This document shows, one piece after another, positions 7,612 to 46,249 of a stretch of DNA of 54,112 bases (the stretch's first letter is position 1; each line of letters opens with the position of its first letter). Under the pieces are notes generated by a model. It worked only from the letters and a program-made list of their open reading frames with translations. It had not been told where the DNA came from and made no database searches. Source of the stretch: a virus; IMG/VR virus record IMGVR_UViG_3300002131_000051, positions 1 to 54,112 of that record; one strand, written 5' to 3'. Made by a program: the position numbers and the translations under genes.

Positions 7612-7642
7612 GTGTATAAAATAAGTAAAAGAAATATTGTAT

Positions 7643-7650
7643 TATCTTTG
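7643..7650 (+). promoter_or_regulatory. Promoter -7 element TATCTTTG before 7681 gene
   Basis: TATCTTTG followed by TGATATTAAATT lies 30 bases upstream of the ATG at 7681. It matches TAnnTTTG and shares downstream sequence with the elements at 3248 and 14539. No clear -33 TTG. Confidence 0.7.
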
Positions 7651-7680
7651 TGATATTAAATTCAAATTAAATAAATTATT

Positions 7681-8722: not shown

Positions 8723-8723
8723 T

Positions 8724-8948: not shown

Positions 8949-8995
8949 TACCATATAAGTGGTATCTTAGTGGTTGTATAAATTAAATTAAATTA

Positions 8996-9607
8996 ATGAA
9001 ATCACCATTTGACTTTATAGTCAAACCACTTGATGGCAAGAGATATAGTAATATCAAAAAAATTGGTAACGTAGATCTCATTGTAAGCACATCCGAGGAG
9101 GACCATAAATTCTCAAATAGATATGCAGAGGTTATAGATGTTCCGATTGGATATGATGGTCATATAAAATCTGGAGATATACTTCTTGTTCACCATAATG
9201 TATTTAAGTTCTATAATGACATGAGAGGAAACCAAAGAAGTGGCAGAAGCTATTTCAAGGATGACCTATTCTTTGTTGATACCGAACAGTTCTTTATGTA
9301 TTACAATGGAGACGAGTGGAATGCATACGATAGATATTGCTTCATTAAACCTATTCCCCCAGTTGATTCATATATATTTAAACCATTAAGTGAAGAGCCG
9401 CTTATAGGTGAGATGAAGTACCCGAATGATTACTTAAAAAGCAAGGGGGTTATGCCAGGTGACTTGGTTACTTTTATGCCTGGGACTGAGTATGAGTTTA
9501 ATGTTGACGGAGAGAAACTTTATAGAATGTACGACCACCATATAAGTATGGTTATACCTAAATTATTTTGCGATGGATTCAAAGGAAATAAAGTTAAAGA
9601 TAATTGA
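8996..9607 (+). CDS. Conserved protein upstream of terminase genes
   Basis: 203 residues with a recurring beta pattern: GYDGHIKSGDILLVHHNVFKF, then a GDEWNAYDRYCFIKPI segment, then MPGDLVTFMPGTEYEFNVDGEKLYRMYDHHISMVIP. The GD...L/V and final 'Y.MYDHHI.MVI' pattern vaguely recalls GroES-type co-chaperonin barrels, but this is only an impression. The gene overlaps the next one by 35 bases and has a short AAATTAAATTAAATTA leader. It lies immediately upstream of packaging genes, so a role in assembly is plausible but unproven. Confidence 0.55.
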   Translation: MKSPFDFIVKPLDGKRYSNIKKIGNVDLIVSTSEEDHKFSNRYAEVIDVPIGYDGHIKSGDILLVHHNVFKFYNDMRGNQRSGRSYFKDDLFFVDTEQFFMYYNGDEWNAYDRYCFIKPIPPVDSYIFKPLSEEPLIGEMKYPNDYLKSKGVMPGDLVTFMPGTEYEFNVDGEKLYRMYDHHISMVIPKLFCDGFKGNKVKDN

Positions 9608-9854
9608 AGCTGGTCATGCGGCTGTTGAGCAATTAATAAAAGTTGCGAAGGAGTCTATTATAAAGATTGACCCCGAAGATGCATTGTCAGCGGATAGACT
9701 AAAAAACGCAGCGGCTACTAAGAAGCTTGCTATATTTGATGCATTTGAGATACTAAGTAGGATAGAGTCCGAGAAAGAAGCTATAGAGTCAGCATCAGGA
9801 CCAGTAAGTAAGACATATACAAAACAAGGATTTGCAGAACGAAGATCAAAATAG
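9573..9854 (+). CDS. Possible small terminase subunit
   Basis: 93 residues, mostly helical (KLKIIEAGHAAVEQLIKVAKESI..., AADRLKNAAATKKLAIFDAFEILSRIE pattern). The position directly upstream of TerL with 23-base overlap, the size and the helical content fit a small terminase or TerS-like DNA-recognition subunit. I recall close relatives in other Bacteroidota phages in the same place. No helix-turn-helix is obvious, so the call rests on context. Confidence 0.5.
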   Translation: MDSKEIKLKIIEAGHAAVEQLIKVAKESIIKIDPEDALSADRLKNAAATKKLAIFDAFEILSRIESEKEAIESASGPVSKTYTKQGFAERRSK

Positions 9855-14510: not shown

Positions 14511-14538
14511 GATTTTAAAAGGGAAATATTTTTTTAAG

Positions 14539-14546
14539 TAACTTTG
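14539..14546 (+). promoter_or_regulatory. Promoter -7 element TAACTTTG before scaffold/capsid genes
   Basis: TAACTTTG followed by TAATTAAATTAAATT lies 19 bases upstream of the ATG at 14566. It fits TAnnTTTG and the extended motif shared with 3248 and 7643. It would boost scaffold and capsid transcription. Confidence 0.7.
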
Positions 14547-14565
14547 TAATTAAATTAAATTCAAT

Positions 14566-15666
14566 ATGGAAATTAAAGTAAGAGAATTAGATGGTGTTGA
14601 ACAGAAATCAATGCAAGAGGTTGAACAAGTTTTATTAGATAAGCATGATAGCGAGTTTAATGATGACGGTTCGGATAGTGTGGGCGAAGATAATGTCGAT
14701 GCCGATGAGAAAATAAGTCTTGATGAGCCTAATGATGGCTATGAGATTAAAGAAGAAGACGTTCTTTCATTTATTAAAAATAGATACGGAAAAGAGATCA
14801 ACTCTATAGAAGAATTAACTAGAGAAAGAGAGGAAGCTGAAGAGCTACCTGGAGATGTCTCTGCTTATTTCAAATATAAAAAAGAAACAGGGCGTGGGAT
14901 TGAAGACTTTGTAAAACTAAATAGAGATTTAGATGAAGTAAGTCCAGACAGCTTGTTAAAAGAGTATTTGACTATTACCGAAAAGGGGTTGGATCAAGAT
15001 GATATTGAATCTATGATGGATGAATATGATTATGATGAAGACCTTGACGATGATAGCACAATTAAAAAAGCTAGATTAGCTAAAAAGAAAATGGTTGCTA
15101 AAGCCAAAGATTATTTTGAATCTGAAAAGGAAAAGTACAAAGCTCCTGTTGAGTCAATGGGTGCTTCTGTTTCTAATGAAGATAAACAAAAGATCGAGGA
15201 ATACAACCAGTATGTTAAAGAGTCAATGTCTTTGGGTGAGCAAATGCAACGTAAGGAGCAGTGGTTTAAAGAAAAGACTAGTGAAGTATTCGGAAGTGAG
15301 TTCAAAGGTTTTGAGTTCACGCTTGACGATAACAAACTTGTTTTTACCCCAGGTGATGCAGCTGAGATGAATAAGATTCATAGTGATCCTTCAAACTTTA
15401 CGAAGAAGTTTTTAGGTGAAGATGGTCTCTTAGTCGATCCTGTAGGATACCACAAAGCATTGTCAGTCGCAATGAACCCTGAGAAATTTGCCGAGTTCTT
15501 TTATAAGCAAGGCAAATCAGCAGCAGTTGATGACGTTATGCGTAAGACTAAAAACATAAACATGTCTGAGCAGAATGTACCTCAAAATATTGCTAAGGGG
15601 GGAACGACAATTAGGGAGATTGGACAAGACTCAGGTCGAGGTCTAAAAATTAGGAGTAAAAAATAA
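14566..15666 (+). CDS. Scaffold-like protein
   Basis: 366 residues, strongly charged. Acidic stretches occur near 30-65 and 140-155 (DEYDYDEDLDDD), followed by basic and helical coiled segments (ARLAKKKMVAKAKDYFESEKEKYK) and a basic C-terminus (GRGLKIRSKK). Between portal and capsid genes, this composition is typical of a head scaffolding protein that guides capsid assembly, with the basic tail contacting the capsid protein. No protease motif is seen, so scaffold removal by this protein itself is not supported. It has its own promoter. Confidence 0.7.
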   Translation: MEIKVRELDGVEQKSMQEVEQVLLDKHDSEFNDDGSDSVGEDNVDADEKISLDEPNDGYEIKEEDVLSFIKNRYGKEINSIEELTREREEAEELPGDVSAYFKYKKETGRGIEDFVKLNRDLDEVSPDSLLKEYLTITEKGLDQDDIESMMDEYDYDEDLDDDSTIKKARLAKKKMVAKAKDYFESEKEKYKAPVESMGASVSNEDKQKIEEYNQYVKESMSLGEQMQRKEQWFKEKTSEVFGSEFKGFEFTLDDNKLVFTPGDAAEMNKIHSDPSNFTKKFLGEDGLLVDPVGYHKALSVAMNPEKFAEFFYKQGKSAAVDDVMRKTKNINMSEQNVPQNIAKGGTTIREIGQDSGRGLKIRSKK

Positions 15667-15684
15667 AAACTAAAAAGAAAAATT

Positions 15685-17106
15685 ATGTCAGTACAAGCAG
15701 TACCAGGATACCAATTGCAGCCAAGTGCACAACAAGTTCCTTTGAAGTCAAATTACATTAGTAATTTTGATTTCTTAAATCAATATTTACCAGATACTTA
15801 CGAAAAAGAATTCGAAAGATATGGTAACAGAACAGTATCTTCTTTCTTACGTATGGTAGGAGCAGAGATGCCGACTAACTCTGACCTTATCAAATGGGCA
15901 GAACAAGGTCGTTTACATACTAAGTATGTTGACTGTACAACTACAGTTCTTACAAACTCAGATGTTGCGACATTCACAGTTAATGACACATTGAACCCAG
16001 CTGCATCAGGTGCTATTGCGGTTCGTGCTGGTCAAACACTTATGATCACAGCTAACGCAGGTGGAGCTAACTACAAAGCAATCGTAACAGCAGTAAACAC
16101 TACAGCTGGTACTTTTGATGTAGCATTCTACAATGCAGCTGGTATCACAAATGCAACAGCTACAGATAAATGGTCAATTTTCATCTATGGTTCTGAGTTC
16201 AAAAAAGGAACAAATGGAATGCAGGGTTCTTTGGAAGCTGACGATGAGATCTTCGAGAACTCTCCAATCATCATCAAAGATAAGTATGCAGTATCAGGTT
16301 CTGATATGGCTCAAATCGGATGGGTTGAAGTAACAACTGAGAATGGTGCTAATGGTTATTTGTGGTACATGAAGTCAGAGCACGAAACTCGTTTGCGTTT
16401 CGATGACTACTTGGAAACTGCAATGATCGAAGCTGTTCCTGCTGAAACTGGTTCAGGTGCTGCGGCAACTGCTGGTGATGTTGGTAACAAAGGTTCTGAA
16501 GGTGTATTCTATTCGGTAAACCAACGTGGAAACGTATGGGGTGGTGGTTATCCAACAACATTGGCTGACTTCGATGCTATCGTATCTCGTCTTGACAAAC
16601 AAGGATCAATTGAAGAAAACGCATTATTTGTTGATAGAGCATTTAGCTTTAGCATCGATGATATGTTAGCTGCACAAAACTCTTATGGAGCAGGCGGTAC
16701 TTCTTATGGTTTGTTTGAAAACGACAAAGAAATGGCTTTGAACTTAGGGTTCTCAGGATTCCGTAGAGGTTACGATTTCTACAAATCTGATTGGAAATAC
16801 TTGAACGATCCAACAATGCGTGGTGGTTTGCCAACAGCAGCTGGTTCAGGTAAAGTAAACGGATTGTTAGTTCCAGCTGGATCTACAACTGTTTATGACC
16901 AAATCCTTGGTAAGAACGCAAAACGTCCATTCTTACATGTACGTTACAGAGCTTCAGAAACTGAAGATCGCCGTTACAAAACTTGGATTACAGGTTCAGC
17001 AGGTGGTGCAGAAACATCTGATCTTGATGCAATGGAGGTTAACTTCTTGTCTGAAAGAGCAGTATGTACACTAGGTGCAAACAACTTCTTCTTGTTCCAA
17101 AACTAA
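15685..17106 (+). CDS. Major capsid protein
   Basis: 473 residues downstream of the scaffold gene and followed by a strong terminator, the usual place for the capsid gene. Residues about 88-170 (TTVLTNSDVATFTV...DKWSIFIYGSEF) are beta-rich and look like an inserted domain; the rest fits an HK97-fold length. Codon choice differs from neighbours, with more AAC, TTC, ATC and CGT codons, consistent with very high expression. The leader AAAAACTAAAAAGAAAAATT is A-rich. The HK97 fold is inferred from context, not from an explicit motif. Confidence 0.85.
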   Translation: MSVQAVPGYQLQPSAQQVPLKSNYISNFDFLNQYLPDTYEKEFERYGNRTVSSFLRMVGAEMPTNSDLIKWAEQGRLHTKYVDCTTTVLTNSDVATFTVNDTLNPAASGAIAVRAGQTLMITANAGGANYKAIVTAVNTTAGTFDVAFYNAAGITNATATDKWSIFIYGSEFKKGTNGMQGSLEADDEIFENSPIIIKDKYAVSGSDMAQIGWVEVTTENGANGYLWYMKSEHETRLRFDDYLETAMIEAVPAETGSGAAATAGDVGNKGSEGVFYSVNQRGNVWGGGYPTTLADFDAIVSRLDKQGSIEENALFVDRAFSFSIDDMLAAQNSYGAGGTSYGLFENDKEMALNLGFSGFRRGYDFYKSDWKYLNDPTMRGGLPTAAGSGKVNGLLVPAGSTTVYDQILGKNAKRPFLHVRYRASETEDRRYKTWITGSAGGAETSDLDAMEVNFLSERAVCTLGANNFFLFQN

Positions 17107-26387: not shown

Positions 26388-26912
26388 ATGGGAGTATTTA
26401 ACTTGTTCAGAAAGAAAAAAGAGAATCCTGAAGACTTACTAAAGTTTATATCAGTAGACAGAGGTATACTTTGGGAAGCTATTTCTGATTTTAAAGATAC
26501 CATTAAAAATATAGATGGAGCAATAAATCACAATACTGATGAGATGGCTGAGGTGTTTCCTCTGGAGCATCATATTCAGGATGGTTTATATACAAGAGAA
26601 ATACTTATGCCAAAGGGATCGTTAGTTGTTAGCTTCATACATAAGACAAATCATCCGTCATTTTTTATGTCAGGAGAGATGTCTATATTAGCTGATAATG
26701 GAGAAATTAAAAGAATAAAAGCTCCAATGAAGGTTATGACTGAAATTGGAACACAAAGAGTTGCCTATATGCATGAAGATTGCGTATGGGTTTGCGTATA
26801 TAAAACAGATAAAGAAACAGTTGAAGAGGCGGAGAAAGAGGTTTATACTGAAGACTATCTCGACCTTCCTGAACACATCATTTTAAATAAAAAATTACAA
26901 TGGCAGGATTAA
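26388..26912 (+). CDS. Cupin-like small virion-block protein
   Basis: 174 residues. The core PLEHHIQDGLYTREILMPKGS (split as PLEHHIQDGLY/TREILMPKGS) followed by IHKTNHPSFFMSGEMSIL and GTQRVAYMHEDCVWVCV is a small cupin-type beta barrel pattern (H-x..., G-x-Y-x-R-E, M-x-x-G) found in many phages. The His residues near 61-62 and 85-89 could bind metal. The C-terminal tail is acidic. It has its own promoter and overlaps the next gene by 13 bases. The biological role of these phage cupins is unknown. Confidence 0.6.
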   Translation: MGVFNLFRKKKENPEDLLKFISVDRGILWEAISDFKDTIKNIDGAINHNTDEMAEVFPLEHHIQDGLYTREILMPKGSLVVSFIHKTNHPSFFMSGEMSILADNGEIKRIKAPMKVMTEIGTQRVAYMHEDCVWVCVYKTDKETVEEAEKEVYTEDYLDLPEHIILNKKLQWQD

Positions 26913-27724
26913 TAGCAGGCATTGCAGGTTTAGTTATACAGGCAGGGACAACTGCTGTATCGTTTGCTCAGGCAAATAAAGAGAAAAATAAACAGCTCGA
27001 ATTCCAGAATGAAGCGGATAAGGCACTAGCCGAGGCTAGAAAAGCTTTGCAGGTAAACTATGCGGAGCAGATGTCAATCAAGAAAGAGCCGTACAATGCA
27101 GAGAGAATGGCTCTACTTGCTCAAGGAGCTATGATTACTCAGGCTGCTGCTGAGAGCGATAGAGGAGCTGCCTCTGCTGCTGGTCAAATATATGCAGGTC
27201 AACAGATGGGTCAGGCTAACATAGCTGAGAGACAATCAAATGATTTAACTAATATTGAGAATGCAATTCTTGAAGAAGACTCAAGACTAAGAGATATAAA
27301 TGTCGGGCTTGACACAATGGAGATTCAAGGAAATCAACAGGCTGCTGCTGATGCGAGATTTGCTTCTCAGCAAGCACTGCAGGCAGGTATCCAAGGTGTG
27401 GCAAATACAACTCAGCAAGCAATAGCAATGCCAAGCCTATATCCTAAATCAAAATCTAAGGTAGTAACAGGTGTTGTTGGTGCAGGTGAAGCAGCACCTC
27501 AACAAGGTAAAGCAGCAGGTCAAGGTATGCCAAATCCATATATATCAAGCAATTCAGTATTTGATTTGTATTCTAACCCATTTTCAGTAAACAATTCAGT
27601 ATTTGCTCCTCCAAGTGCTCCGAATCCATACGCAGTAAACAATCCAGCAACTCCAGGTATGCCGAATCCATACGCAGTAAACAATTCAATATTTGATTTG
27701 TATTCTAACCCATTTTCAATATAG
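26900..27724 (+). CDS. Internal virion protein, gp14-like
   Basis: 274 residues. The N-terminus (MAGLIAGIAGLVIQAGTTAVSFA) is hydrophobic and small-residue-rich; a long Ala/Gln-rich helix follows (25-180). This is the layout of podovirus ejection proteins such as T7 gp14. The C-terminal 75 residues hold repeats: MPNPY...NSVFDLYSNPFS twice and NPYAVNN twice, which could be docking motifs. It is flanked by two larger internal-virion-like genes. The ejection role is inferred from composition and context. Confidence 0.6.
   Translation: MAGLIAGIAGLVIQAGTTAVSFAQANKEKNKQLEFQNEADKALAEARKALQVNYAEQMSIKKEPYNAERMALLAQGAMITQAAAESDRGAASAAGQIYAGQQMGQANIAERQSNDLTNIENAILEEDSRLRDINVGLDTMEIQGNQQAAADARFASQQALQAGIQGVANTTQQAIAMPSLYPKSKSKVVTGVVGAGEAAPQQGKAAGQGMPNPYISSNSVFDLYSNPFSVNNSVFAPPSAPNPYAVNNPATPGMPNPYAVNNSIFDLYSNPFSI
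27551..27721 (+). repeat. Direct repeats encoding VFDLYSNPFS
   Basis: A 39-base unit at 27551-27589 recurs at 27683-27721 with two or three changes. A second 24-base unit encoding NPYAVNN occurs at 27620-27643 and 27662-27685. All lie in the 3' end of one gene and arose by local duplication. Confidence 0.85.
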
Positions 27725-27731
27725 TTAACAC

Positions 27732-29669
27732 ATGGCAACAAAGATAGGATATGTAGGCAGAGATGCTTCTGAACAGATAAACTGGGCAGAGGTTGGGTCA
27801 AACTTCTCAGGAATTCTTAAAGAAGAGGCTCGTGTACGTGAGGAGAAGAAGGCTGAGATAGATAGGGCTACTCGTGAAGCGATGAACTCTTATAAGAACA
27901 CAGTAACAGGTGACTCTGGAAATATGAACACCTGGGCATTAAAGGGGGGCGATGGTGCTCAACAACAGCTTTTAATGGCGAATTCTTTACTAAAGAGTGG
28001 TCAGCTGAAGCCAAAAGACTACATAACAATGCGCCAAAATTTAACAGATGGATTTGACCAGGCGATGACACTAGCCCAAGAATATCAAAATGAATATGCT
28101 GATAAGATGGAACGATACAAGGCTAATCCAGGCACAGCTGTTGGTCCTGATGGTAAGCCGATTACAGGAGCTCAAAAACTTGAGTCTTTCTTGATGGAGT
28201 CAGCAGAGGGGTTTGGTAATTTCAACAATTCAGAAATTGTAATAAATAATGAGACAGGCAATGTACTAGTTGGATTTAAAGATCCTGCGACAGGTAAAAT
28301 TGAGACTGATCCAAATAAGTTAGTTGGTATAAATAATCTTAGAAATAGAATCAAAGGGAAATTTGATGCTTATGATATGGCATCAGCTGTAACCAAAGCC
28401 AAAGCAGAAGTATTTGGTCAGTTCCAAGCGATTGACGCTAAGTTAGGCACACTATATCAGAAGGGATTAATCACTACTATGAGTGGTGCTGCATTTAGAA
28501 GCGAGTCTAATATTGCAGATATGGTTAAAAAAGGATACATTACTAAGGAAGATGCGAAGTTGATTGGTATGCAAGAAGATACTGAGAACCTTTGGGCAGA
28601 AAGCCAATTATCAAACGTATACAATATTAGTTCTTTATTGACTAATAATTTAGGTGGTTTTGCTTCTAATGGTAAAGAATATACATTTACTTTCGATGCT
28701 AGCGAAGAAGACGAAAATCATATTTTAGTTGATCAAGTTGACGGTAATGTTGTTCCTAATTTCGATAGTGCAATAGGTAAGGCTCATAGGGACAAGGCAA
28801 AAGAAGGTTTAATCACTGTTCTTAGAGGTGCGCTTAATGTCGCTATTGAAGGGCAAGCAATTAGCGGAGCAACTCCTCCTCAGCGTCCACAACAGCAACA
28901 GTGGCAAGCGTTACGAAGTGATGAGAGGAGAGATAAATACTCAGCAGTAGGTGCTTGGGGTAAACTTTATTATGGGAACGAATCAGAACAAATTTCCGCA
29001 ACACAACAAATATTAGGAACGCAAGCCGCACAAAACCAAGGTATATATGATGTAGACATAAAAAGTAAACCTGGTTATGTTATTCTGAAATTTGATGGGA
29101 ATGGAAGTGTACCGAAGGGTAGCAGGTCCGTGCCGATGATAAAAGCTAATGGAGAACCTATTCCTTATAGAGACTTTGTTATATCAGGAAACCAAATACA
29201 CGGAGTAGATAATACTGAGCAGGCATTAGCGGCTTCTGGAGGTAGTGCAAACCAAACTTATTATGAGAAAAAAACAGGACGAGCAATTAGAGAACAGGGT
29301 CAAGGTGGTGAGACATACAGAGATAAAATCATTAAAGAAGTAAATACTCCTAGGTATAAAGGCAGTTTTCAGTATGGAGCATTCAAGGACAAGGAGGTAA
29401 AATACGTTCTACAGAGTATTAATAATCAAGCAGTGAAATTTGGAGGCTCAGTTGCCGCTGTAGAGGGGTCCAAAACTGATTTTGAAGTTACAACGGCATC
29501 AGGAAGAAAAATTATATATAGTGTAAATAATAGAGATAACAAATCAGCTCAAGAAACAAGAGATAGTTTCTTAAATGAATTAGCTACAGATATGTCTTTA
29601 ACAATAGCGGAGCAAAAGTTTCGTCAATTCAATCTGAGTAGCGGTGGCAATAGCATGGCACCTCATTAA
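27732..29669 (+). CDS. Internal virion/ejection protein
   Basis: 645 residues, mainly helical in the first 330 with charged repeats (KEEARVREEKKAEIDRATRE), then a mixed region with a Gln-rich linker near 383-390 (PQRPQQQQWQ) and a beta-rich C-terminal part (FQYGAFKDKEVKYVL...). It starts 7 bases after the preceding ejection-like gene. No lysozyme or transglycosylase motif was seen. The position between the gp14-like gene and the giant polyvalent gene suggests packaged or injected cargo. Confidence 0.55.
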   Translation: MATKIGYVGRDASEQINWAEVGSNFSGILKEEARVREEKKAEIDRATREAMNSYKNTVTGDSGNMNTWALKGGDGAQQQLLMANSLLKSGQLKPKDYITMRQNLTDGFDQAMTLAQEYQNEYADKMERYKANPGTAVGPDGKPITGAQKLESFLMESAEGFGNFNNSEIVINNETGNVLVGFKDPATGKIETDPNKLVGINNLRNRIKGKFDAYDMASAVTKAKAEVFGQFQAIDAKLGTLYQKGLITTMSGAAFRSESNIADMVKKGYITKEDAKLIGMQEDTENLWAESQLSNVYNISSLLTNNLGGFASNGKEYTFTFDASEEDENHILVDQVDGNVVPNFDSAIGKAHRDKAKEGLITVLRGALNVAIEGQAISGATPPQRPQQQQWQALRSDERRDKYSAVGAWGKLYYGNESEQISATQQILGTQAAQNQGIYDVDIKSKPGYVILKFDGNGSVPKGSRSVPMIKANGEPIPYRDFVISGNQIHGVDNTEQALAASGGSANQTYYEKKTGRAIREQGQGGETYRDKIIKEVNTPRYKGSFQYGAFKDKEVKYVLQSINNQAVKFGGSVAAVEGSKTDFEVTTASGRKIIYSVNNRDNKSAQETRDSFLNELATDMSLTIAEQKFRQFNLSSGGNSMAPH

Positions 29670-29703: not shown

Positions 29704-32700
29704 ATGAACGAAGAAGCATTAAATACACTATATTCTTTGGCAAAAGAAGAAGGTTACTCAAAATCATTTGATGAATTCAAATTGTTAATGTCATCGAATA
29801 ATGAGGCTATTAATACTATGTATAACGTATCTAAAAATAATGGGTACACTAAAACAATAGATGATTTTAAAGTATTAGTTGGTAATAAAAAACAACAAGC
29901 TGATTCTAATCCTGTAAAAAAAAAAGGTTCTACGAAGCCTTCATCGCAGGCTACAAAGCCTTCAAAGAATCCTTGGACAGATCAAGACCTTACAGGGGGT
30001 AATGATCCGAAGCAGAAAACAACCTTTACAGCTCCTTTAAAGCGTGAATCTCAAAATGTAACCCCAAAGGATCCATATAGCAGCAATGAAAGCGATTGGA
30101 AACAAAAAACAACCTTTACAGCTCCTTTAAAGTATGATCCTGAAAAGGAGAGAGCTGATGCTGATGCAAAATATTTTGCTGAGAACCCACCGCCAATGAC
30201 TTTGGATCAACTAAAAGCAAAGCAGGCAGCGGAAATGCCTAATGGAGATCCCTATGCTGGGACTATACTAGCAGGAAATATTTCAGACCAATTTGAAAAA
30301 TCTCAAAAAGAAATTAATAGTGATTTAATTGAGAAGAATGAAGAGTTTGTAGTGCCTAAGTTGCAGTATGAATATGGTCAGTACGGTTTTAAGTTTGAGC
30401 AAACTGGCATGGGTGATGCTATGACTGTAACAGCTCAAAATAAAAAAGTTCTATATGTTGACCTTGATCCTTGGTCGGGGTCGAGTTCAAAAGAATCAGC
30501 TAATGAATTAAAAAAATTCCTAAGAGAAAATAAAACAACTGATGGTGCAAATAAGGCTAAACAAAGAGTTCAGAGTCAAGATGAAGTCTTAAGGGCTGTC
30601 AGGGTATTGAATGATCAAGTAAAATATTTTGAAGATCGGGTGGAGAAATTTTCAATATTAAAATCCAAATACGAAAAACAATATGAGGATGAGTTTAAAG
30701 GTGTGCCTCCTAGCGAAATACAAAACAACCCTGAATTATTAGATAAGCTCAACGTATGGAGTGCTGAGTATCAAAAAATCATTGATAAGGGAAATAATCT
30801 TAATAATATAGATAAAACTTTAAGATACAAGGGAGCGAAACTTGATAGGCTTACAGGTGAATACGCAAGGATGCAATCAAAACAAGGCACACTTTTTCAA
30901 GGAATGACGAAGGAATTCATGAAGAACTTTGCTGGCTCTTCGGCAGAGATGGCAAGTGAGACTATAGATTTGGTGACTTATGGGAGTGGTCTAATGGGAG
31001 CACCAGCTGGGATGAGTAAGGAAGAGTACAAGAGAGAACTTATTCGTGTAGCTAAAGAGGAAAACTTAATACCAGAAAAATATAAAGGCAAGGGGCTAAA
31101 CGGCTATTCGTTAGAAAAAATTACTTCCATACTTGGCGGAGATACCAATGATGCCTATTCCATAACAAAATCACTCAAGGATAGGGCGTTAATGATGGCA
31201 AAGGATATGTTTGGATCACCATCTGTGCAGGATTTCATAAACTTAGATTCAGAAAAAACTGCATTTGACATAGCTAATTCAAAGGTATTAGACTTAGTCA
31301 GAAAATCAATAAAATATAACAAAAATTATAAAGACGCAGTAGAAGGAAGACAAAGAAACAGGTACTCTTATACCGCAGACAAAACAGATGTTTCTTTGGG
31401 TATTGTCGATGTTACGAGAACAGCATTAGCTGATAGATTTATGGATACTTTTTCTGATAGCGATATTTCTGAGGCATATTTAAGCCTACAACAAGAAAGC
31501 ACATGGAGCAGAGCCTTATTAGGTATTTCTGGGTCATTACCATCTATGATTGGAGGTCCTGGAGCAGTAGGTGGTCTCGTTAGAAAAGCTAAACTATTTA
31601 CAAGCACAGCTAGCGCAATGGACAAAGAGATGGCTGATAATCCAGAATTTGACGATGTGCCTGAAAGTGAAAAGTATCTGATTAAGGTCCCAGTGGCGTT
31701 AGCTGTTAGTAGACTTGAAGATATTGGATTCAGAAATGTTATATCACAAAAGGGTCTTTTAAACAAGTACCTAGCAAAAGCAATAGGTAAGTCTACAGCC
31801 ACAACAACGGCAAAAACTTTTTCTGAATTTATAGCGCAGGATGTGAAGAGTTCATTTGCTAGAGGAGCACTTACAATTACAGCCGCAGGACTAGCTGAGT
31901 TTGAGACTGGAGTCGAGCAAGAGCTTACTGAAAGTTTCTTAAAAGAACTTTATAATGATGTGAAGGGCAAGGATATGTTTGAAACGCCTAACACACTTAC
32001 TGAATGGTTCAGTGATGCGTTGATGGCAGGTGTTGACGAGATGATTGGTGGATTTATAATGGGAGTTCCAGGTGCTGTAAAAAACGCTATAACAAAACAA
32101 AAGACTAATACTCTTCCAGATGGTGTATTTGAAACATTTGAGGCAATCAGAAATGATCCTAACTTTATTGAGATGCACGAGGCTAAATTAAACATTCAAG
32201 TTGATGAAGGTGAAATTACAAGAGAAGAGGCAGATTCGGAATTAGAAATAACAAAAAAACTTATAGGTCAATCAAGATCCATACCAACTGACTATACTAC
32301 TGATCAAAGAAAGAGGGCTTTAGCAATAATATACGAGAGAGACAATTTAATGGATGATATAAAAGTATCTGATCCAAAGCTTGTTACAAAAAAGCAGGCT
32401 CGTGTTGATCAATTAAATAATCAATTAGAAAGTATTATAGATGAACCTAAAACAGCACCACAAACTAGTGAGGTTGATATAGAAGCGAAATATGATAAAA
32501 TAATAGAAGATGAGGGTTTAAATATTTTAGCACCTATCTCTATTGATGAAGAGGGTTTGTCAAGTCAAGAAATACAAGATGTTAAGAAAAAACAAGAAGA
32601 ACAAATACAACGAGATAAAAGACTTGAAGAATTAGAAAAATTAAAACAAGCAGAACTAGCTGCTTTAGCACCAACATCACGAGCTGGTATAAATGAAGAA

Positions 32701-35700
32701 AACTCATCAAATTTTGCTAACCTTACAGAGGATGCAGATGGTAATTTTGTATTCTTCCATAGAGGGAAAAAAGGATACGATAAAGTAAAGAAGTCATCGG
32801 GAACAACTAAAGGATCTAAGGGTGAATCGATTGCTCTAGGTAAGATTGGTGGGGCTGCTATGTACTATACGGACCAGAATGACTCAGAACAAATGGTTAC
32901 TGGTAACGCTCAGTATTCAGTAAAAGTAGCTAAGGATAAAGTATACGATGCTAATTCTGATCCTTTAGGATTCAGAGAAGAAGCCAAGGCTATGCATGAG
33001 GAAGAATTCCCAGGGCAGTCATTTGATAGTAATACTGAGTTAGCATACATAACTAAGGTTGCTGGGAATAATGGTTTTGAAATGGTTGTCGGTCAATGGG
33101 GTGGTAAAACTAGGGCTCAAACGACATCTGAGTTAGCACCTAATGATAGTCGTGAGTTTGATGGTGACGTAATGACGAAAGACTTCTCTGAGAAGTATAT
33201 AGGCAATAGAGATAAGGGATACGAGGCTGTAATTCCAAAGTCAAAATTCACTAATCTAAAGGCTTTATATGATAAAATAAATGACATCAGAAACAAAGAA
33301 GCCTTGAAAGGCATGAAGGGTAGATATGATGAATTGTATAAATTAAACTCAAGCTTTGACAAGTATACGCAAGAAGAAATTACTGAGCTTATAGATAAAT
33401 CAGACTTATCTCAAGAAATAAAAGATGAGTATAAAGCCATAATATCTGAACCTACTAAAACAAGGTCTACATATAAGGGTAAGACTGGTACTGTAAAGGT
33501 TGACAATATTCCGAAGGGTACGTTTTTGAACATTGGTTTAGAGATAAAAGGGGAAAAAGGATTAACGGAAGCTGATATTGTTGCTGCATTACCGAGTGAT
33601 GTTAAAATACTCAATAAAGCGGAGATTAAAAAAGAAGGTGGCAAGGTTGATGAAGATACAATGTCATTAGAAATCTCAAGAGAACTGACTGATTATGAGA
33701 TGGCTAGGCTGAGAGAGAGCACTAAGCAGGATGGTATACCTCAGATATCAAATGGTTTTGGTACAATGTACGGCAATATGTCGGCTATATCTATATGGGG
33801 TGATTTTGCACCTAAGCACTTCATAATGCCTGACGGCAGAAAAGCTAGTGAATTTAAAGGAACAAAAGCAAAAGTATCTAAAAAGTTAGATAAGGAAACT
33901 AAACAAGAAGCATCAGATATAGCCAGCTTTTTTGGTGATGATGTTAGTGAAAACATAACCATAAATACAAAAAATAAAGGTGACCTTTCCCCAGCACAAC
34001 AACGAAATAGAGAATTAATTATATCTATTGCAACCAAAGCTGCTAAAGCTGTTAAGAAGTTACTACCAGATTTAAAGATAGTCATGCATGATAGCAATGA
34101 TGAGTATGTTAAATATGCAGGAGCAGAAGGAAGGGGAGCATATATCTATAATGGCAATGAAAAGGTTATACATATAAATCTTACAAATGCAACTAAGTCA
34201 ACTGTTGCGCACGAAATATTTCACGCTGTACTTCTTGACAGAGTGAAGAATGATGAGAATCTAGCAATGGCGATATCCAAAAAAATGGTTGGATCAGTTA
34301 GGAAAGCACTGCCTAAAAACAGCAAGTTAGGATTGGCGATTGATAAATTTGCAGAAAAGTATATTAACGAACAAGGTGAACTTCAGAATGAAGAAAGATT
34401 GGCTGAGTTAATTGGATTATTATCATCAAATGAGTATGGATATAGAACATTAGATAAGCCATCAAAAAATGTAATCATAGAATTCTTTAAGTCATTAGCC
34501 AAAAAACTTGGCGTAAATCTAGGAGAGAGCTTCGGGAAAAAGGATGATAGTGTTATTGACTTGATCAATACATTATCAACTAAAGTTTATTCAGGTGAAA
34601 CAATAACTGAGCAAGATGTTGAGATATTAAACGTGGAGCAAGGAGGACTTGTAGAGGGCGCAGATGGCATAATACCTAATGACATAAATGATGATGGTCC
34701 AACCATTAATTTCTCATCAAGACAGCAAAAGTCTGTTAGCGAAGTTATTACTGAAGCGAGACAGAACAACTTTAGAGATGTTGCGATTAGAGACTATTTA
34801 ATTAGACTTAAAGGGTTTAACGCAAAAGATGTTGATAGTGCCTTGAGCATAAATATAAATCTATTTGATGAACTGCCAAATAGCTTTAAGAATATAGATG
34901 GAGGTGCTGTATCTGGAGCTAAACTATTCAAAAGAGTTATTGATTTCAAAGCTAAATTGATAGCTAGTAATAATTCAAATACTAGATTGACAGCAATTGA
35001 GTTGGACGAAAAGGTAAAAGAATTTGCAAAAAAACAAAAGGAAACATATAAAAATCCAACTCAGATAAATAATGATGTAAGGGTGTTTAAGGGTGAACTT
35101 TTAGATAAAAATTCAAAATCAAAAACTCCACTTAATACTAAGGAAATAAATGAAAAGGTAAGAGATTTTAGAGATAAAGCAAATGAATCTAATAAACAAC
35201 TAAAAGATAAGGCTGCTGACAACATCGATAAGTACCTAAAGAAAGAACTTGGTATAAATAATTCAAAGTCTGCACTTCTATCTAATCAAGATATAATAGA
35301 TAAGACTATTGAGTTCCTTGAAAAACAACCAGAATATATTAATGAAAGTAACACTTATACAGTTGGAAGTAAAAAGAAAGGTACAAAACAGACCTTAAAC
35401 AGAAAAGGACTATCTACTCAGCAGGCAAAAATGCTAAGTGATCTTCAGAAGTCTTCCGACATTAGACCATCAAAAAACATGGCTAAGAAGATAAGAGATG
35501 CTAGAAGATTAATAATTGGTGTGGCTAAAGGAAAGAGAGACTTGTTGGCTATTAAGCGTGAACTTAGAAACTTTATTAGAAAGACAATTGATACCAATGA
35601 GTATTCCAAGAAAGACGTAATGGATATGGTTAGGTCCATTGAAATTGCTAATCAAGATAATATTGATAATATATATAACGAAGTACTAGAATTTTCAACT

Positions 35701-38547
35701 AAAAGAAATGTATTATCATTATCTAAAAAAATAACTGATATACTTACAAATGAATACGTAGATAAATCTTCTGGCAAACCTAAAGCAAAGAAAATTAATT
35801 TATCTGCAAAGGATAGAATTAAAGGAATAACAGAATTATTATTAAGCGAAAAATCCACTGATAAAGAAATTGAAGACTTAATAGTTGCTCATCAAACCGA
35901 GATGGAGGATCTACTTAAACAGGAATTTCAAGATGACAAAACTTTATCAAGAATCGAGGATCTATCAATTGCTATTGAATACAATTCGTCACTTCAGTTA
36001 GATAACGATAGCATCAATAAAGTTGGTTTATTAGATTCTGTAAGTAATTCTCTTGAAAGTATTATTAATATTGGTAGGACAGATTTAAGAAATGAAATAA
36101 AAGAGGATAACGAAAAAAGAGATAGAGACTTTGAGTATGTATATGAGGACATAACTGGTAATGCTATAGATCTAAAATCTGAACGTGCAAAATCACAACT
36201 ATCTGAACAAAAATATAAGAGAGATAGAGAGGCGGCTAAGAAAAAATCAAGATTTGTACTAATCCAATATGTAGATATGCTAGGTAATTTTTTATCCAAG
36301 AATATATTTGGAACAGCCGAAGCATTAGATGGTTTAATGGATAGAATATCTTCATTGCCAGGTGATCTATTTGGGGGAAGAACTCAAGAGGTAGTTACTG
36401 AAAAAATGGATGAGTCGACAATAATTGAGAAAAAAAGAATAATGTATGTCGAGACATTGATAAAAACAAAAATGCAAGAGATATACGGAAAAAGATGGGG
36501 TAAATTAGCTAGACAAAACAGAAAGGTAAATGTAGAGATAACAAATCAGTTTGGAGACATAGATATGTGGAGTCAAGATCAGATGTATTATATGTATAAT
36601 ATGTATAAAGATCCTGCAAATAGAAGAGCATTCCAAAATATAGAAATGTTTGGAGTAGAATTGGTTGAAGGAAATGAGTCAAAAGCTGAACTTGAGCGAA
36701 TAAAAGAAGCCAATAAAAAAAGTGCTGAAAGCATGATGGAGCAAATAGAGTCTAAGCTTACAAAAGAAGTTAAAGAATTTGCTGACTGGCAGGTTAATGA
36801 ACTATTCCCAGAATTATATGAAACATATAATGAGACGTATAAAAAAATAAATAGAACAAACCTACCAAATAATAAATTCTATGCAGGTAAGGTTTACAGG
36901 GATGGAGTAGAAAATGATTCTGATCCAATGATAGGGAAAGATAGCGCATTTATGAGTAATTATGTAAGCGCATCTTCAACAAAGAGTAAGGTTCTTAGTT
37001 CAAAGCCGATTAAAAAAATGAACGGGAATGATGCTCTTGCTACATATGTAGCTGAGATGGAGCATTATGCTGCATTTGCTGTGAATATTAGAAATATAAA
37101 TAGACTATTCACTAATAAGAATATTAAGCATGCAATAGAAAATATATATGGTGATAAAATATATAAGCTTATAGACCACTCGATAAATACAATAGCAAAT
37201 AGAGGCATTAAAAAGGGAATGTTAGATCATGCTGTCAATGCTCTAAACTCAGGGTTTATTCTGGCAAAACTAGCAATATCTCCAGTGGTTATGGTTAAAC
37301 AGCTAACCTCAACATTTACATATATGGCTGATATAGGTCTAGTAAATTGGTTAAAATATGGAGCCAAAAACAAATTTGAGCAGGCTAAGGTATGGAAAGA
37401 GTTAAGAGATAACTCTGTATATCTGCAAGATAGAAAGTATAACGGTATAGCTAAAAATATTGAGACATATTCTGATGATGGTACTAGAAGATTGATACCA
37501 TCTCGGTCAAAAGAATTTATTGTTAACGCATTAATGTATACAACTAAGTTTGGGGACATGACTGCAATCATGGTGGGGGGGCTTCCAAACTACTCATACT
37601 ATAAGGCGCAAGCAATAAAAAATGGTAAGACAGAAGCGCAAGCAATTGAGATAGCAGTTAGTAAATTTGAAAGCGATACAAAGAGAACTCAGCAGTCTGG
37701 TGATTTACAAGACAAAGATATTACCCAAACAAGCGGAGCGTTAACCAGACTATTTGGTATGTTCTTAACTACACCAAAACAGTACCTCAGAAAAGAAATA
37801 ATGGCAGTCAGAAACTTAGGCAGAAAGCTTCTTAAACTTGACAGAAAAGCAGGTAAGGGAACTATCACTGAGAACCTAAGGGTATTTGCTATGTACCATG
37901 TGTTGATGCCCGTGCTGTACCAGTTTGTAGCAAGTGGTATGCCTGGACTTTTAGCAGACTGGGATGAAGAGGATGAGGATGACTTGATAAGAGCTGCCGT
38001 TGTAGGTAACTTAAATGCACTTTTTATTGTTGGAGATATGATTAATATAATATCAGACGTACTTACGGATAAGCCTTGGGCTGGGAATGTAGGAAGAAAC
38101 GTAGGGATAATCTCAATATCAGAAGAGGTAGGTAAAAATGCAGTTAAATACAGAAACACTAAAGATTTAGCAAAAAAAGAGCAGTATGGGTATGATTTAA
38201 TATTCTCTTCACTTCAATTTGCAGGAGTTCCAGGACCAACCCTTCAAAAGTTCTATAAAAACTATCCAGCTATTGGTAGTGATGATGATGCAAGAAAGGA
38301 TATAATGAGAATCCTAAATTATTCAGATTATGCTATTAATGGCGCAAAGAAAGAAAACAAATCAACAAGAGGGAAGGCAATAAGTTATAACGATATGATG
38401 GAAACAAAAGGAAAAGTAAGTAAAGGTGGCTCAAAATCATTAAATTATAACGATATGATGGAAACAAGAAACAAGGAGAGTCTTGAAAGCGAGAAAGAGA
38501 TTAGAAGAGAAGCAGATATGATAGATTATAATCTTTTAACTGATTAA
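29704..38547 (+). CDS. Giant polyvalent virion protein with ART-like and metallopeptidase domains
   Basis: 2947 residues, the largest gene. Seen in order: two ~35-residue N-terminal repeats (YSLAKEEGYSKSFDEFKLL and YNVSKNNGYTKTIDDFKVL); a doubled KTTFTAPLK motif (about 105-140); a helical region with hydrophobic patches (about 640-800); an FFHRG segment at about 1016-1020 with AMYYTD and RAQTT, like the ART-PolyVal ADP-ribosyltransferase family; HEIFHA at 1503-1508, a zincin-like metallopeptidase motif; long Lys/Glu coiled coils; and a C-terminal region like large polyvalent-protein-associated domains, ending in doubled YNDMMET. Such proteins are thought to enter the host with phage DNA and act on host targets. 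Domain names are from memory of motifs. Confidence 0.7.
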   Translation: MNEEALNTLYSLAKEEGYSKSFDEFKLLMSSNNEAINTMYNVSKNNGYTKTIDDFKVLVGNKKQQADSNPVKKKGSTKPSSQATKPSKNPWTDQDLTGGNDPKQKTTFTAPLKRESQNVTPKDPYSSNESDWKQKTTFTAPLKYDPEKERADADAKYFAENPPPMTLDQLKAKQAAEMPNGDPYAGTILAGNISDQFEKSQKEINSDLIEKNEEFVVPKLQYEYGQYGFKFEQTGMGDAMTVTAQNKKVLYVDLDPWSGSSSKESANELKKFLRENKTTDGANKAKQRVQSQDEVLRAVRVLNDQVKYFEDRVEKFSILKSKYEKQYEDEFKGVPPSEIQNNPELLDKLNVWSAEYQKIIDKGNNLNNIDKTLRYKGAKLDRLTGEYARMQSKQGTLFQGMTKEFMKNFAGSSAEMASETIDLVTYGSGLMGAPAGMSKEEYKRELIRVAKEENLIPEKYKGKGLNGYSLEKITSILGGDTNDAYSITKSLKDRALMMAKDMFGSPSVQDFINLDSEKTAFDIANSKVLDLVRKSIKYNKNYKDAVEGRQRNRYSYTADKTDVSLGIVDVTRTALADRFMDTFSDSDISEAYLSLQQESTWSRALLGISGSLPSMIGGPGAVGGLVRKAKLFTSTASAMDKEMADNPEFDDVPESEKYLIKVPVALAVSRLEDIGFRNVISQKGLLNKYLAKAIGKSTATTTAKTFSEFIAQDVKSSFARGALTITAAGLAEFETGVEQELTESFLKELYNDVKGKDMFETPNTLTEWFSDALMAGVDEMIGGFIMGVPGAVKNAITKQKTNTLPDGVFETFEAIRNDPNFIEMHEAKLNIQVDEGEITREEADSELEITKKLIGQSRSIPTDYTTDQRKRALAIIYERDNLMDDIKVSDPKLVTKKQARVDQLNNQLESIIDEPKTAPQTSEVDIEAKYDKIIEDEGLNILAPISIDEEGLSSQEIQDVKKKQEEQIQRDKRLEELEKLKQAELAALAPTSRAGINEENSSNFANLTEDADGNFVFFHRGKKGYDKVKKSSGTTKGSKGESIALGKIGGAAMYYTDQNDSEQMVTGNAQYSVKVAKDKVYDANSDPLGFREEAKAMHEEEFPGQSFDSNTELAYITKVAGNNGFEMVVGQWGGKTRAQTTSELAPNDSREFDGDVMTKDFSEKYIGNRDKGYEAVIPKSKFTNLKALYDKINDIRNKEALKGMKGRYDELYKLNSSFDKYTQEEITELIDKSDLSQEIKDEYKAIISEPTKTRSTYKGKTGTVKVDNIPKGTFLNIGLEIKGEKGLTEADIVAALPSDVKILNKAEIKKEGGKVDEDTMSLEISRELTDYEMARLRESTKQDGIPQISNGFGTMYGNMSAISIWGDFAPKHFIMPDGRKASEFKGTKAKVSKKLDKETKQEASDIASFFGDDVSENITINTKNKGDLSPAQQRNRELIISIATKAAKAVKKLLPDLKIVMHDSNDEYVKYAGAEGRGAYIYNGNEKVIHINLTNATKSTVAHEIFHAVLLDRVKNDENLAMAISKKMVGSVRKALPKNSKLGLAIDKFAEKYINEQGELQNEERLAELIGLLSSNEYGYRTLDKPSKNVIIEFFKSLAKKLGVNLGESFGKKDDSVIDLINTLSTKVYSGETITEQDVEILNVEQGGLVEGADGIIPNDINDDGPTINFSSRQQKSVSEVITEARQNNFRDVAIRDYLIRLKGFNAKDVDSALSININLFDELPNSFKNIDGGAVSGAKLFKRVIDFKAKLIASNNSNTRLTAIELDEKVKEFAKKQKETYKNPTQINNDVRVFKGELLDKNSKSKTPLNTKEINEKVRDFRDKANESNKQLKDKAADNIDKYLKKELGINNSKSALLSNQDIIDKTIEFLEKQPEYINESNTYTVGSKKKGTKQTLNRKGLSTQQAKMLSDLQKSSDIRPSKNMAKKIRDARRLIIGVAKGKRDLLAIKRELRNFIRKTIDTNEYSKKDVMDMVRSIEIANQDNIDNIYNEVLEFSTKRNVLSLSKKITDILTNEYVDKSSGKPKAKKINLSAKDRIKGITELLLSEKSTDKEIEDLIVAHQTEMEDLLKQEFQDDKTLSRIEDLSIAIEYNSSLQLDNDSINKVGLLDSVSNSLESIINIGRTDLRNEIKEDNEKRDRDFEYVYEDITGNAIDLKSERAKSQLSEQKYKRDREAAKKKSRFVLIQYVDMLGNFLSKNIFGTAEALDGLMDRISSLPGDLFGGRTQEVVTEKMDESTIIEKKRIMYVETLIKTKMQEIYGKRWGKLARQNRKVNVEITNQFGDIDMWSQDQMYYMYNMYKDPANRRAFQNIEMFGVELVEGNESKAELERIKEANKKSAESMMEQIESKLTKEVKEFADWQVNELFPELYETYNETYKKINRTNLPNNKFYAGKVYRDGVENDSDPMIGKDSAFMSNYVSASSTKSKVLSSKPIKKMNGNDALATYVAEMEHYAAFAVNIRNINRLFTNKNIKHAIENIYGDKIYKLIDHSINTIANRGIKKGMLDHAVNALNSGFILAKLAISPVVMVKQLTSTFTYMADIGLVNWLKYGAKNKFEQAKVWKELRDNSVYLQDRKYNGIAKNIETYSDDGTRRLIPSRSKEFIVNALMYTTKFGDMTAIMVGGLPNYSYYKAQAIKNGKTEAQAIEIAVSKFESDTKRTQQSGDLQDKDITQTSGALTRLFGMFLTTPKQYLRKEIMAVRNLGRKLLKLDRKAGKGTITENLRVFAMYHVLMPVLYQFVASGMPGLLADWDEEDEDDLIRAAVVGNLNALFIVGDMINIISDVLTDKPWAGNVGRNVGIISISEEVGKNAVKYRNTKDLAKKEQYGYDLIFSSLQFAGVPGPTLQKFYKNYPAIGSDDDARKDIMRILNYSDYAINGAKKENKSTRGKAISYNDMMETKGKVSKGGSKSLNYNDMMETRNKESLESEKEIRREADMIDYNLLTD
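30016..30132 (+). repeat. Direct repeat encoding KTTFTAPLK
   Basis: A 27-base sequence at 30016-30042 is repeated at 30106-30132, exactly 90 bases apart and in frame. The encoded motif sits in a Pro/Asp-rich linker and may be a short docking peptide. Confidence 0.85.
38385..38467 (+). repeat. Direct repeat encoding YNDMMET
   Basis: A 23-base sequence at 38385-38407 recurs at 38445-38467, exactly 60 bases apart, near the C-terminus of the giant protein. It is in frame, so it duplicates a peptide motif. Confidence 0.85.
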
Positions 38548-43816: not shown

Positions 43817-46249
43817 TTATTTGTCGTTGATTACCGATTTGCTTAAAACTTTTGGCGAATCACCCAATGACCTCCTAATGTACATCCATTTACCATGCAT
43901 GTCTCTTCCAATCTCAGGAGCTACGTCAGTCATGAATAATGCATATGCATATACCCATTTTGCAAACTTCATCCTGCTTACGCTATACCTTGACTTTGGA
44001 GCATAATCAGGGTACTCAGAAATAAATTCATTATAGGCATCTTGTAGCCTAACCTTGAAACCTACTCTAAGCTCGTGATTCGCCTCAGCACCATTAACTA
44101 ACCCACACCACTCAATGAAATCAGGTGATGTCTCTGCTGATAAATTTCTAATTTCAAGATTAACAAATGAACCCTTAATCAGTCCTTTACCAAGATATAA
44201 TTGAAGACATGATATCATATAATTGTCAAACTGACACCACTCAAACTCATCCCAATCAGCAAAGAAATGTTTCCCAAACTCATCTAATGGAGTATAATCC
44301 TTACTGTAGTGCTGGTGAAGTTCAACCTCCCACTTACGTCTTGCAAATGAGTTACCACTACCTTTGATGGCATAGTTTGTTGTAATAGCGATCTTTGGAG
44401 ACCTGCTAAATGGGATCTTAATAGCATCTTTATTCTTCTTCTCAAGCGTTAAACCTTCTGTTACCACACTGAACAATCTTTCAAAATCAAAGTGTTTCTT
44501 AACATCATCAAAACATAAAGCTTGTGTGTCTGCTGATACCAATTGATACGGGAATGATTTCTCAAACGCAAATGCCTTGCCATCAATTACAACCAACTTC
44601 TTCATTTTTCCTATTGCGCTCATGAATAATCCTTTACCCGTTCCACCCTCTGGATTGTCGCTAATCATCTCATCATTTAGAATTATAGCTGGACAATATG
44701 ATAAATTCTTATAACCATGCAGCAAGAATCCAATGGTACTTTCCAATGTCTTTACCCTAGCCTCATCGTTAGCACATATGCGTCCAATGAACTGTTTGTA
44801 ATCGCATGAGTTATCGTCACATATATCAAAAACTCTATCAACAACATGGTCCTTCCAAACGTAACCACCTAAGTCAAGGTAGTCAATTGGCTCTACTGTG
44901 TTTTCAGTAATCTTAACTGCACAATTAATATAGTACAAATACGATGTATCCTTAGTATCTTCTATGAAGTAGATGTCAATGGTAGACAACAGAGTCAAGA
45001 AATCTTCCTTAAAGAATCTCGTCTGGTCTGCGAAGTAATTATAAATAGCCATATCATCCATGGTCTCAAGATAATTCAATATGAAATCCTTAATATCTTT
45101 CTCAGAAGTGTGGTCAACTAAATTATTTGTAACCTTTACGAATACATAATTTTTTCCTCCCTCTGGACAAAACTTATAGAATCCACTGTCTTCAAGAAAT
45201 GTTTTGAATTTGTGATGAATTATTTTAACTAAACCTTTATCGTTTTTAGTCCAAAAAACATCCAATGAATCACTATTCTCAATTCTATTTAGAACTAATT
45301 CAATTATCTCGCTATCAATATCTGACCCCTTTAACTGATAGCGAATATCATTTTTTGATACACCATTGTTAAGTTGTGACTTTATCTCACTTATTTTTTC
45401 AGTATCCTCATAATACTTAGAACCAAAGTTTCCTGTATTTGCATATGCGGAATCAATTGTGCGAGATATCTCACTAATTGGGAAGTCGGTGTCTGAGTAC
45501 TGGTTCAAGACATAACCAGCTAATGACTTTGCAATTCCATAATCATTGAACGCCATAGCCAAAACAAATACATTATGATTTCTCTGACCATCTACCATCG
45601 GATACTTCTTTGTCCACCATTTCACAAGAATCTCAACTATCTTGTTCTCATCTGTTATTGCTATCGTTGGCGCATCAACATTCTTAACTACCTCGATATA
45701 CTCTGGATCATCAAGAACAGTCCATATCTTTGAATCATAGTTGATGTAAATCAAAGGGTCAAACGACTCGTAACATACACGAGACACATTCTTAACCACT
45801 GAATCAAAGTGTGGTGAGTTGAAGTGTTTGCCAATTGCGTTGAAGTAGCTAACGTGGTTGTTGACCTCTGTCGGGATCTTCATCAAGACCTTAAGCCCAT
45901 TTCCTGAAGGAGATACGAACACAGAGAATACAAACTTATCCTTTGACAATTTATCCTTGTCAAAAAGTAAGTCTCTGGTTCTGTCGTACCCATCAAAGTC
46001 CAAACATATCAATCCGCTATGCTCGACCAATGAACTATCATTTCTTTTATTAAACTTACCGCTAAAACAAATCGCTGGAAGTAATTTTTTTAATTCATTA
46101 CGCTCAGACTTATCTTTTTCTGCACGTATTTTTTTAACTAAATTCTTTGACTCTCCGTTCTTTACCCTATCAAGGAGAACCTTTACGTCTCGGTAGAACG
46201 GTGTATCCGTCTCCTTTATGTTCTTGAAAATTGTTACATTATATGTCAT
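43817..46249 (-). CDS. Primase-helicase (VirE/BT4734-like N-terminus, SF3-like ATPase)
   Basis: 810 residues. The N-terminus has an archaeo-eukaryotic-primase-like domain of the BT4734/VirE-N type, with HSGLICLDFDGYD (Asp84, Asp86) and VSPSGNGLKVLM as the catalytic-fold markers. A helical linker follows (about 210-290). The C-terminal ATPase shows GGTGKG at 535-540, CFDDVKKHF as Walker B, ITTNYAIKG as sensor and SFARRKWEVEL as arginine finger, like SF3 or D5-type replicative helicases. It probably primes and unwinds phage DNA. Three TCAACATAA repeats precede the start. Confidence 0.85.
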   Translation of the reverse strand: MTYNVTIFKNIKETDTPFYRDVKVLLDRVKNGESKNLVKKIRAEKDKSERNELKKLLPAICFSGKFNKRNDSSLVEHSGLICLDFDGYDRTRDLLFDKDKLSKDKFVFSVFVSPSGNGLKVLMKIPTEVNNHVSYFNAIGKHFNSPHFDSVVKNVSRVCYESFDPLIYINYDSKIWTVLDDPEYIEVVKNVDAPTIAITDENKIVEILVKWWTKKYPMVDGQRNHNVFVLAMAFNDYGIAKSLAGYVLNQYSDTDFPISEISRTIDSAYANTGNFGSKYYEDTEKISEIKSQLNNGVSKNDIRYQLKGSDIDSEIIELVLNRIENSDSLDVFWTKNDKGLVKIIHHKFKTFLEDSGFYKFCPEGGKNYVFVKVTNNLVDHTSEKDIKDFILNYLETMDDMAIYNYFADQTRFFKEDFLTLLSTIDIYFIEDTKDTSYLYYINCAVKITENTVEPIDYLDLGGYVWKDHVVDRVFDICDDNSCDYKQFIGRICANDEARVKTLESTIGFLLHGYKNLSYCPAIILNDEMISDNPEGGTGKGLFMSAIGKMKKLVVIDGKAFAFEKSFPYQLVSADTQALCFDDVKKHFDFERLFSVVTEGLTLEKKNKDAIKIPFSRSPKIAITTNYAIKGSGNSFARRKWEVELHQHYSKDYTPLDEFGKHFFADWDEFEWCQFDNYMISCLQLYLGKGLIKGSFVNLEIRNLSAETSPDFIEWCGLVNGAEANHELRVGFKVRLQDAYNEFISEYPDYAPKSRYSVSRMKFAKWVYAYALFMTDVAPEIGRDMHGKWMYIRRSLGDSPKVLSKSVINDK

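Follow-up and report, generated by a model that had tools for sequence, protein, structure and literature searches.

What role could a single protein of 2947 residues play for a phage that encodes it at the end of its virion genes, and how was such a chain put together? The gene (P0001; 29704..38547, + strand), described here from ORF calling and family mapping as a scaffold-plus-enzyme protein and hereafter referred to as the giant, belongs to IMG/VR record IMGVR_UViG_3300002131_000051, a viral record of 54,112 nt that comes without any host genome and at its full length constitutes the window analysed. The ORF begins with an ATG and is free of internal stops, and most of the protein's length is kept in more than 100 metagenomic phage proteins, indicating a real gene. 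The conservation of its enzyme motifs among the ART-like and zincin copies described below also far exceeds what chance would give. An earlier sequence-only reading had suggested a polyvalent protein with ADP-ribosyltransferase (ART) and metallopeptidase activities. The ORF size and every motif that it named were recovered at its positions, namely FFHRG (residue 1017), AMYYTD (1052), HEIFHA (1503) and the doubled peptides KTTFTAPLK (105 and 135) and YNDMMET (2895 and 2915). Scans of the whole protein against Pfam, PHROG and NCBIfam returned only sub-threshold noise, without any meaningful score.

The genomic context provides a first part of the answer. The giant gene closes a late block on the + strand, the next large ORFs being on the − strand, and this order agrees with its earlier description as the last gene of an internal virion protein run. 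Directly upstream, a 645-residue protein (27732..29669, +) is preceded by a small internal virion protein of 274 residues (26900..27724, +) matching phrog_13764, a virion structural protein. The latter was named gp14-like from its position and size and the former, presumptively, gp15-like; the best matches of both are in phages of the scaffold family described below, and the position of the gp15-like gene is matched by phi38:1 gp100 and in podovirus ctfjg026. The last ~70 residues of the gp14-like protein contain the repeats FDLYSNPFS, PNPYAVNN and GMPNPY, each present twice. The terminase shares 75% identity with that of ctfjg026 (Manatee Spring, MW202828) and 46% with those of elemo Flavobacterium phages, and the gene order parallels Cellulophaga phi38:1 gp90-gp101 and the elemo phages, with a shared succession of terminase, portal, capsid genes, a virion protein of ~1300-1550 residues, small genes, a gene of 450-650 residues and the giant. 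The phage carrying the giant is of flavobacterial type and probably a podovirus. On its − strand, positions 43817-46249 encode an 810-residue protein that matches phrog_28855 (function unknown) very strongly, at 1037 bits, and a primase/helicase family less strongly.

In elemo and Cellulophaga phages, the giant's counterparts occupy the same place and are annotated as structural proteins. This label is an annotation, derived for phi38:1 from similarity to another phage, and no proteomics paper on elemo phages was found in the library searched. Since the labels of relatives rest on annotation, the giant might be a late-expressed protein kept out of the virion and acting inside the infected cell. 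We hold this to be very improbable, as the giant is the last gene of a virion block whose order is conserved across several phages, is co-inherited with the gp14/15-like genes, and displays a long, hydrophobic and helical C-terminus.

The architecture of the protein was delineated by segment mapping of a scaffold family of 117 proteins fetched from collection searches (75 non-redundant). Complete members measure about 2,000-4,100 residues, and the modules N, Nb, MID, zincin, LINK and CT/CT2 are common to most of them, the middle part being helical. The studied giant starts with N-terminal repeats (residues 1-66; 29704..29901, +) made of two diverged ~30-residue units, kept in many relatives, where the two-unit pattern has a spacing of 27-31 residues. 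A linker with a doubled KQKTTFTAPLK (residues 103-113 and 133-143; 30010..30132, +) lies within a region (residues 81-160) for which no homologs were found among relatives, and is followed by the Nb module (residues 160-460; 30181..31083, +) and the MID module (residues 469-951; 31108..32556, +) of the scaffold family. Downstream of the zincin, the LINK module (residues 1671-1925; 34714..35478, +) leads to a helical C-terminal scaffold (residues 1925-2880; 35476..38343, +) common to Tenacibaculum phage Gundel_1.

The C-terminal ~1000 residues are the best-conserved part of the family. Their model is all-helical (pLDDT 76, pTM 0.71), with hydrophobic stretches at residues 2511-2535, 2725-2751 and 2762-2788. 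A PDB fold search with this model found no relative, so that an ejection role is suggested by position and hydrophobicity only. The C-terminus had been called polyvalent-associated: it is indeed common to many phage giants, but the only named polyvalent-associated C-terminal domain tried, LPD38 (PF18857), was not matched by HMM in 8 records, the control genomes being likewise silent. In one relative (L028), the giant is carried by two overlapping ORFs (7127-13600 and 13567-15951) split inside the C-terminal module, through a frameshift, a sequencing error or a real split.

The protein ends with a tail (38344..38544, +) bearing the doubled YNDMMET (residues 2895-2901 and 2915-2921; 38386-38466). 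Tails of the family (L144, L146, L147, L153, L158, L159, L161, L120, L132) consist of basic linkers with short lineage-specific motifs repeated 2-6 times, such as NPM, DNxIF or VFxP. These repeats are perhaps docking or packaging signals. The idea that the tail motifs form a signal common to several virion proteins was rejected, as within the sequence fetched around these loci no further ORF contained them in two copies.

Among the conserved modules, the zincin metallopeptidase domain (residues 1440-1645; 34021..34638, +), delimited by alignment, model and fold search, was identified in nearly all mapped family members, whereas the cargo varies. Nine positions (H1490, H1503, E1504, F1506, H1507, Y1553, E1563, E1564 and G1631) are invariant in 58/58 aligned zincins. 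Because relatives were retrieved partly by the patterns VAHE[IV]FH or IHIN, the invariance of HExxH and IHIN is partly selected; E1563/E1564, Y1553 and G1631 lie outside these patterns. The AlphaFold model is confident over the region, and solved zincins rank first in a PDB fold search, yet with E-values of 0.025 and above (Foldseek). The HExxH motif with a Glu on the following helix is present (H1503, E1504, H1507, E1564), as is the conserved His that closes core strand 2, the invariant H1490 being located at a modelled strand. An Asp three residues after HExxH marks one zincin sub-clade (Iyer et al. 2017, PMC5512222); the giant (HEIFHAVLLD) has a Leu there, placing its zincin outside that sub-clade. 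Overall, a zincin domain is well supported, and the earlier claim based on HEIFHA is borne out by the predicted fold and by the invariant residues.

A zincin that remains near-constant while the cargo varies is expected of a processing enzyme, and the giant could accordingly be a self-cleaving polyprotein, as the sequence-only reading had suggested, whose zincin mainly cuts its own chain, freeing the ART-like and other domains as separate effectors or trimming the protein for packaging. Auto-processing of polyvalent proteins has already been proposed by Iyer et al. (2017), and P1 DdrB is cut before packaging, but N4 virion RNAP, which also contains such a domain, is packaged uncut (PMC5512222). 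We regard this reading as rather unlikely, though worth more weight than the other rivals considered here.

The region preceding the zincin has a different history. Scanning the giant with 80-residue windows, we found that residues 161-880 and 1400-2920 have their best matches in the scaffold family (up to 78%), whereas residues ~990-1400 match giants of the ART-like clade (up to 68% identity), the scaffold family being absent or weak there; residues 881-1000 weakly match both. Among the fetched scaffold-family proteins, only the giant of the studied phage carries the ART-like domain. Judged by these similarities, the giant is a chimera, with residues ~990-1400 resembling another giant-protein lineage only. 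The gp14-like and gp15-like proteins encoded next to it likewise resemble the scaffold family most, so this cassette is probably the newcomer. Composition was uninformative as a sign of recent foreign DNA, the cassette having a GC content of 0.369 against 0.361 and 0.329.

A second site of variation follows the zincin. The zincin-to-LINK stretch spans 0 to 1851 residues in 67 family members, mostly about 280-1000, and is a near-empty cargo slot in the studied giant (residues ~1645-1671; 34636..34716, +). In relatives, this slot contains a methyltransferase (L032, with weaker matches in L026 and L043), a canonical ART-PolyVal domain (L058, L166, L037), a GNAT-like match (L114; weak in L067) or DUF3293 (L174). 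The pre-zincin slot of another relative (L171) holds a canonical ART-PolyVal domain (36 bits, above the cut-off) at the same site as the ART-like domain of the studied giant. Across 69 copies, the ART-like domain follows the zincin in 25/69 and precedes it in 21/69, including the studied giant. With 3859 residues, the giant of ctfjg026 matches the studied one only in residues 1-278 in a translated search, despite the 75% terminase identity, indicating a fast turnover. Enzymes thus seem to be exchanged on a delivery scaffold that is itself conserved.

The first part of the probably imported cassette is the ART-like domain (residues 1000-1180; 32701..33243, +), characterized by H1019, Y1055 and R1137-A-Q1139 and defined by AF2 model, Foldseek, conservation and the chimera scan. 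Its model is of high confidence (blocks mostly 80-97) and places H1019 on strand 1, Y1055 on strand 2 and R1137-A-Q1139 on a later strand. Using a three-domain model as query, Foldseek retrieved AcrIF11 (6kyf), an anti-CRISPR protein with proven ADP-ribosyltransferase activity, from the PDB with a probability of 0.97, a target TM of 0.54 and an E-value of 0.068; a predicted ART-superfamily fold for residues 1000-1180 has moderate support. Predicted-structure matches include phage proteins named ART-PolyVal-like or polyvalent-associated, the aligned domain not being reported. When profiles of the ART-like, zincin, DUF3293 and small domains were run against PDB sequences, no meaningful match emerged.

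The 69 distinct copies of this clade retain H1019 (69/69), Y1055 (68/68), R1137 (68/68) and Q1139 (65/67), and all are located in phage ORFs (1208-4145 residues when complete); none was detected by pattern scan in 84,980 prokaryote species genomes, nor by translated search in a plasmid collection. The HMM of ART-PolyVal (PF18760, cut-off 31.2 bits) matched neither the ART-like domain in a search of 18 records, including the studied one, nor any of 21 clade members, and a profile-profile comparison with five canonical ART-PolyVal domains, whose reference alignment was shallow and poor, was not significant. The polyvalent ART signature is H-Y-D (Iyer et al. 2017, PMC5512222): the invariant H1019 and Y1055 provide its His on strand 1 and Tyr on strand 2, but the strand-5 Asp appears to be replaced by Gln (Q1139), with the strand assigned from the model alone. 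The segment that the sequence-only reading had called ART-PolyVal-like therefore retains its predicted ART-type fold (AlphaFold/Foldseek) and loses its ART-PolyVal membership, and we treat it as a domain of ART fold that is distinct from ART-PolyVal. In the libraries searched, it forms a separate, phage-only and unnamed clade outside PF18760. A 2587-residue giant on a 107 kb phage contig (L014:5249-13009) carries both a canonical ART-PolyVal domain (E 3.8e-12) and an ART-like copy, indicating distinct modules.

With PF18760 unmatched and Gln at the third position, the domain may be inactive or perform another chemistry. The same features, the third residue not being acidic, are those expected if the giant were a purely structural ejection protein with its ART-like and zincin domains kept as structural relics devoid of catalysis. 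Nevertheless, no positions are better conserved among deeply diverged copies than the active-site-type residues (H1019, Y1055; HExxH, E1564), and recognisable enzymes occupy the slots of relatives, which makes the purely structural explanation unlikely.

The second part of the cassette, defined by model and chimera scan, is a small alpha-beta domain (residues 1265-1435; 33496..34008, +) modelled as strand-helix-strand-strand-helix-strand, which also accompanies the ART-like domain in other loci (L080, L025, L082, L016). In elemo-type giants, its position is occupied by DUF3293. The small domain matched neither the PF11697 nor the PF23780 HMM, whereas its elemo-type counterparts match both, and its alignment with the DUF3293 type was not significant; its likeness to DUF3293 or to an SAM lyase is at most positional. 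The DUF3293 of elemo-type giants itself reaches 32.3 (L009) and 28.9 bits (L003) against Pfam S-AdoMet_lyase (cut-off 28). S-AdoMet_lyase scores at or near the cut-off were observed at the DUF3293 loci L003:14374-14793, L001:11990-12406, L009:4667-5083 and L174:8834-9256. The elemo-type domain retains G-x-Y, E-x-S and mostly Q-E-S motifs, which were aligned by eye to Gly56/Tyr58, Glu69/Ser71 and Gln104/Glu105/Ser106 of Svi3-3, a phage SAM lyase (residues from PMC7877911). This DUF3293 is a candidate virion-carried SAM-degrading, anti-restriction domain.

Taken together, we consider it probable that the giant is a virion-delivered polyvalent protein in a T7 gp16-like position, carrying exchangeable enzymes on a conserved scaffold. 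The conserved modules of its N-terminus, its middle and its helical C-terminus would probably make up a DNA-ejection apparatus together with the gp14-like and gp15-like proteins. Enzymes would be carried at two slots flanking the conserved zincin, the pre-zincin one being filled here by the putatively imported ART-like and small alpha-beta cassette. The giant chain would be packaged, then enter the host with the first DNA; the ART-like domain would use NAD+ to modify a host protein of the transcription or defence machinery before phage gene expression, and the zincin would trim its own chain or a host target. We infer proteolysis along with packaging, injection, NAD+ chemistry and target, these last four from gene position, polyvalent-protein precedent and T4 Alt (discussed in PMC5512222). 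A more specific proposal, that a new H-Y-Q phage-only ART class, carried on an ejection chassis with two slots around a zincin, modifies a defence or transcription protein of the host by ADP-ribosylation as the DNA enters, is only tentative, with the balance leaning against it.

Injected chains that combine a zincin with an ART have already been proposed in print (PMC5512222). As far as the libraries searched show, our analysis adds a two-slot scaffold family with cassette exchange, an ART-like clade that is confined to phages and falls outside PF18760, and the resemblance to SAM lyases of the DUF3293 domains carried by elemo-type giants. The general idea of injected polyvalent proteins thereby becomes a defined and testable system, with one scaffold, two slots and natural cargo exchanges. 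The cargo identified so far (ART, methyltransferase, acetyltransferase-like and SAM-lyase-like) suggests that flavobacterial phages, and environmental phages beyond them, use it for early takeover and against restriction, and the unnamed ART-like clade represents a concrete candidate for a new phage enzyme that uses NAD+.

Comparison with known systems places the giant close to the polyvalent proteins, in which zincins are the commonest domain and ARTs the commonest protein-modifying domain (Iyer et al. 2017, PMC5512222), so that pairing a protease with an ART is not unusual. Like them, it is a very large chain in a virion-gene context that combines disparate enzyme domains, here predicted ART-like and zincin folds with conserved site residues. 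Unlike them (PMC5512222), its ART-like domain lies outside ART-PolyVal and is devoid of the strand-5 Asp, and it belongs to a defined two-slot scaffold family; no named LPD domain was detected, LPD38 being the one tried, with silent controls. The giant structural protein of elemo Flavobacterium phages (e.g. QMP85251.1) is encoded at the same place and has a related ART-like domain (44% identity) and a related zincin (39%), but has the zincin before the ART, a recognisable DUF3293 and another C-terminus. The giant structural protein of Gundel_1 (YP_010356829.1) has a homologous C-terminal module over ~950 residues (24% identity), but a weak GNAT match in place of the ART-like cassette, and its gene precedes the terminase gene. 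AcrIF11 (PDB 6kyf), the best ART-type fold match, is also phage-encoded with a His/Tyr pair, but is small, stand-alone and expressed in the cell, and its third residue is acidic (D115, or D146/E147 in Pae2); the AcrIF11Pae2 mutants H20A/Y46A and D146A/E147A lose activity (PMC12421852). No sequence similarity was detected between AcrIF11 and the ART-like domain, and neither by sequence nor, with its C-terminal model as query, by PDB fold did the giant match solved ejection proteins such as those of T7. The T7 ejection proteins gp14, gp15 and gp16 are encoded by three consecutive late genes of rising size that end the virion block. The giant is likewise the last of three consecutive late genes, with presumptive gp14 and gp15 equivalents upstream, but it is far larger than gp16 and carries effector-type domains.
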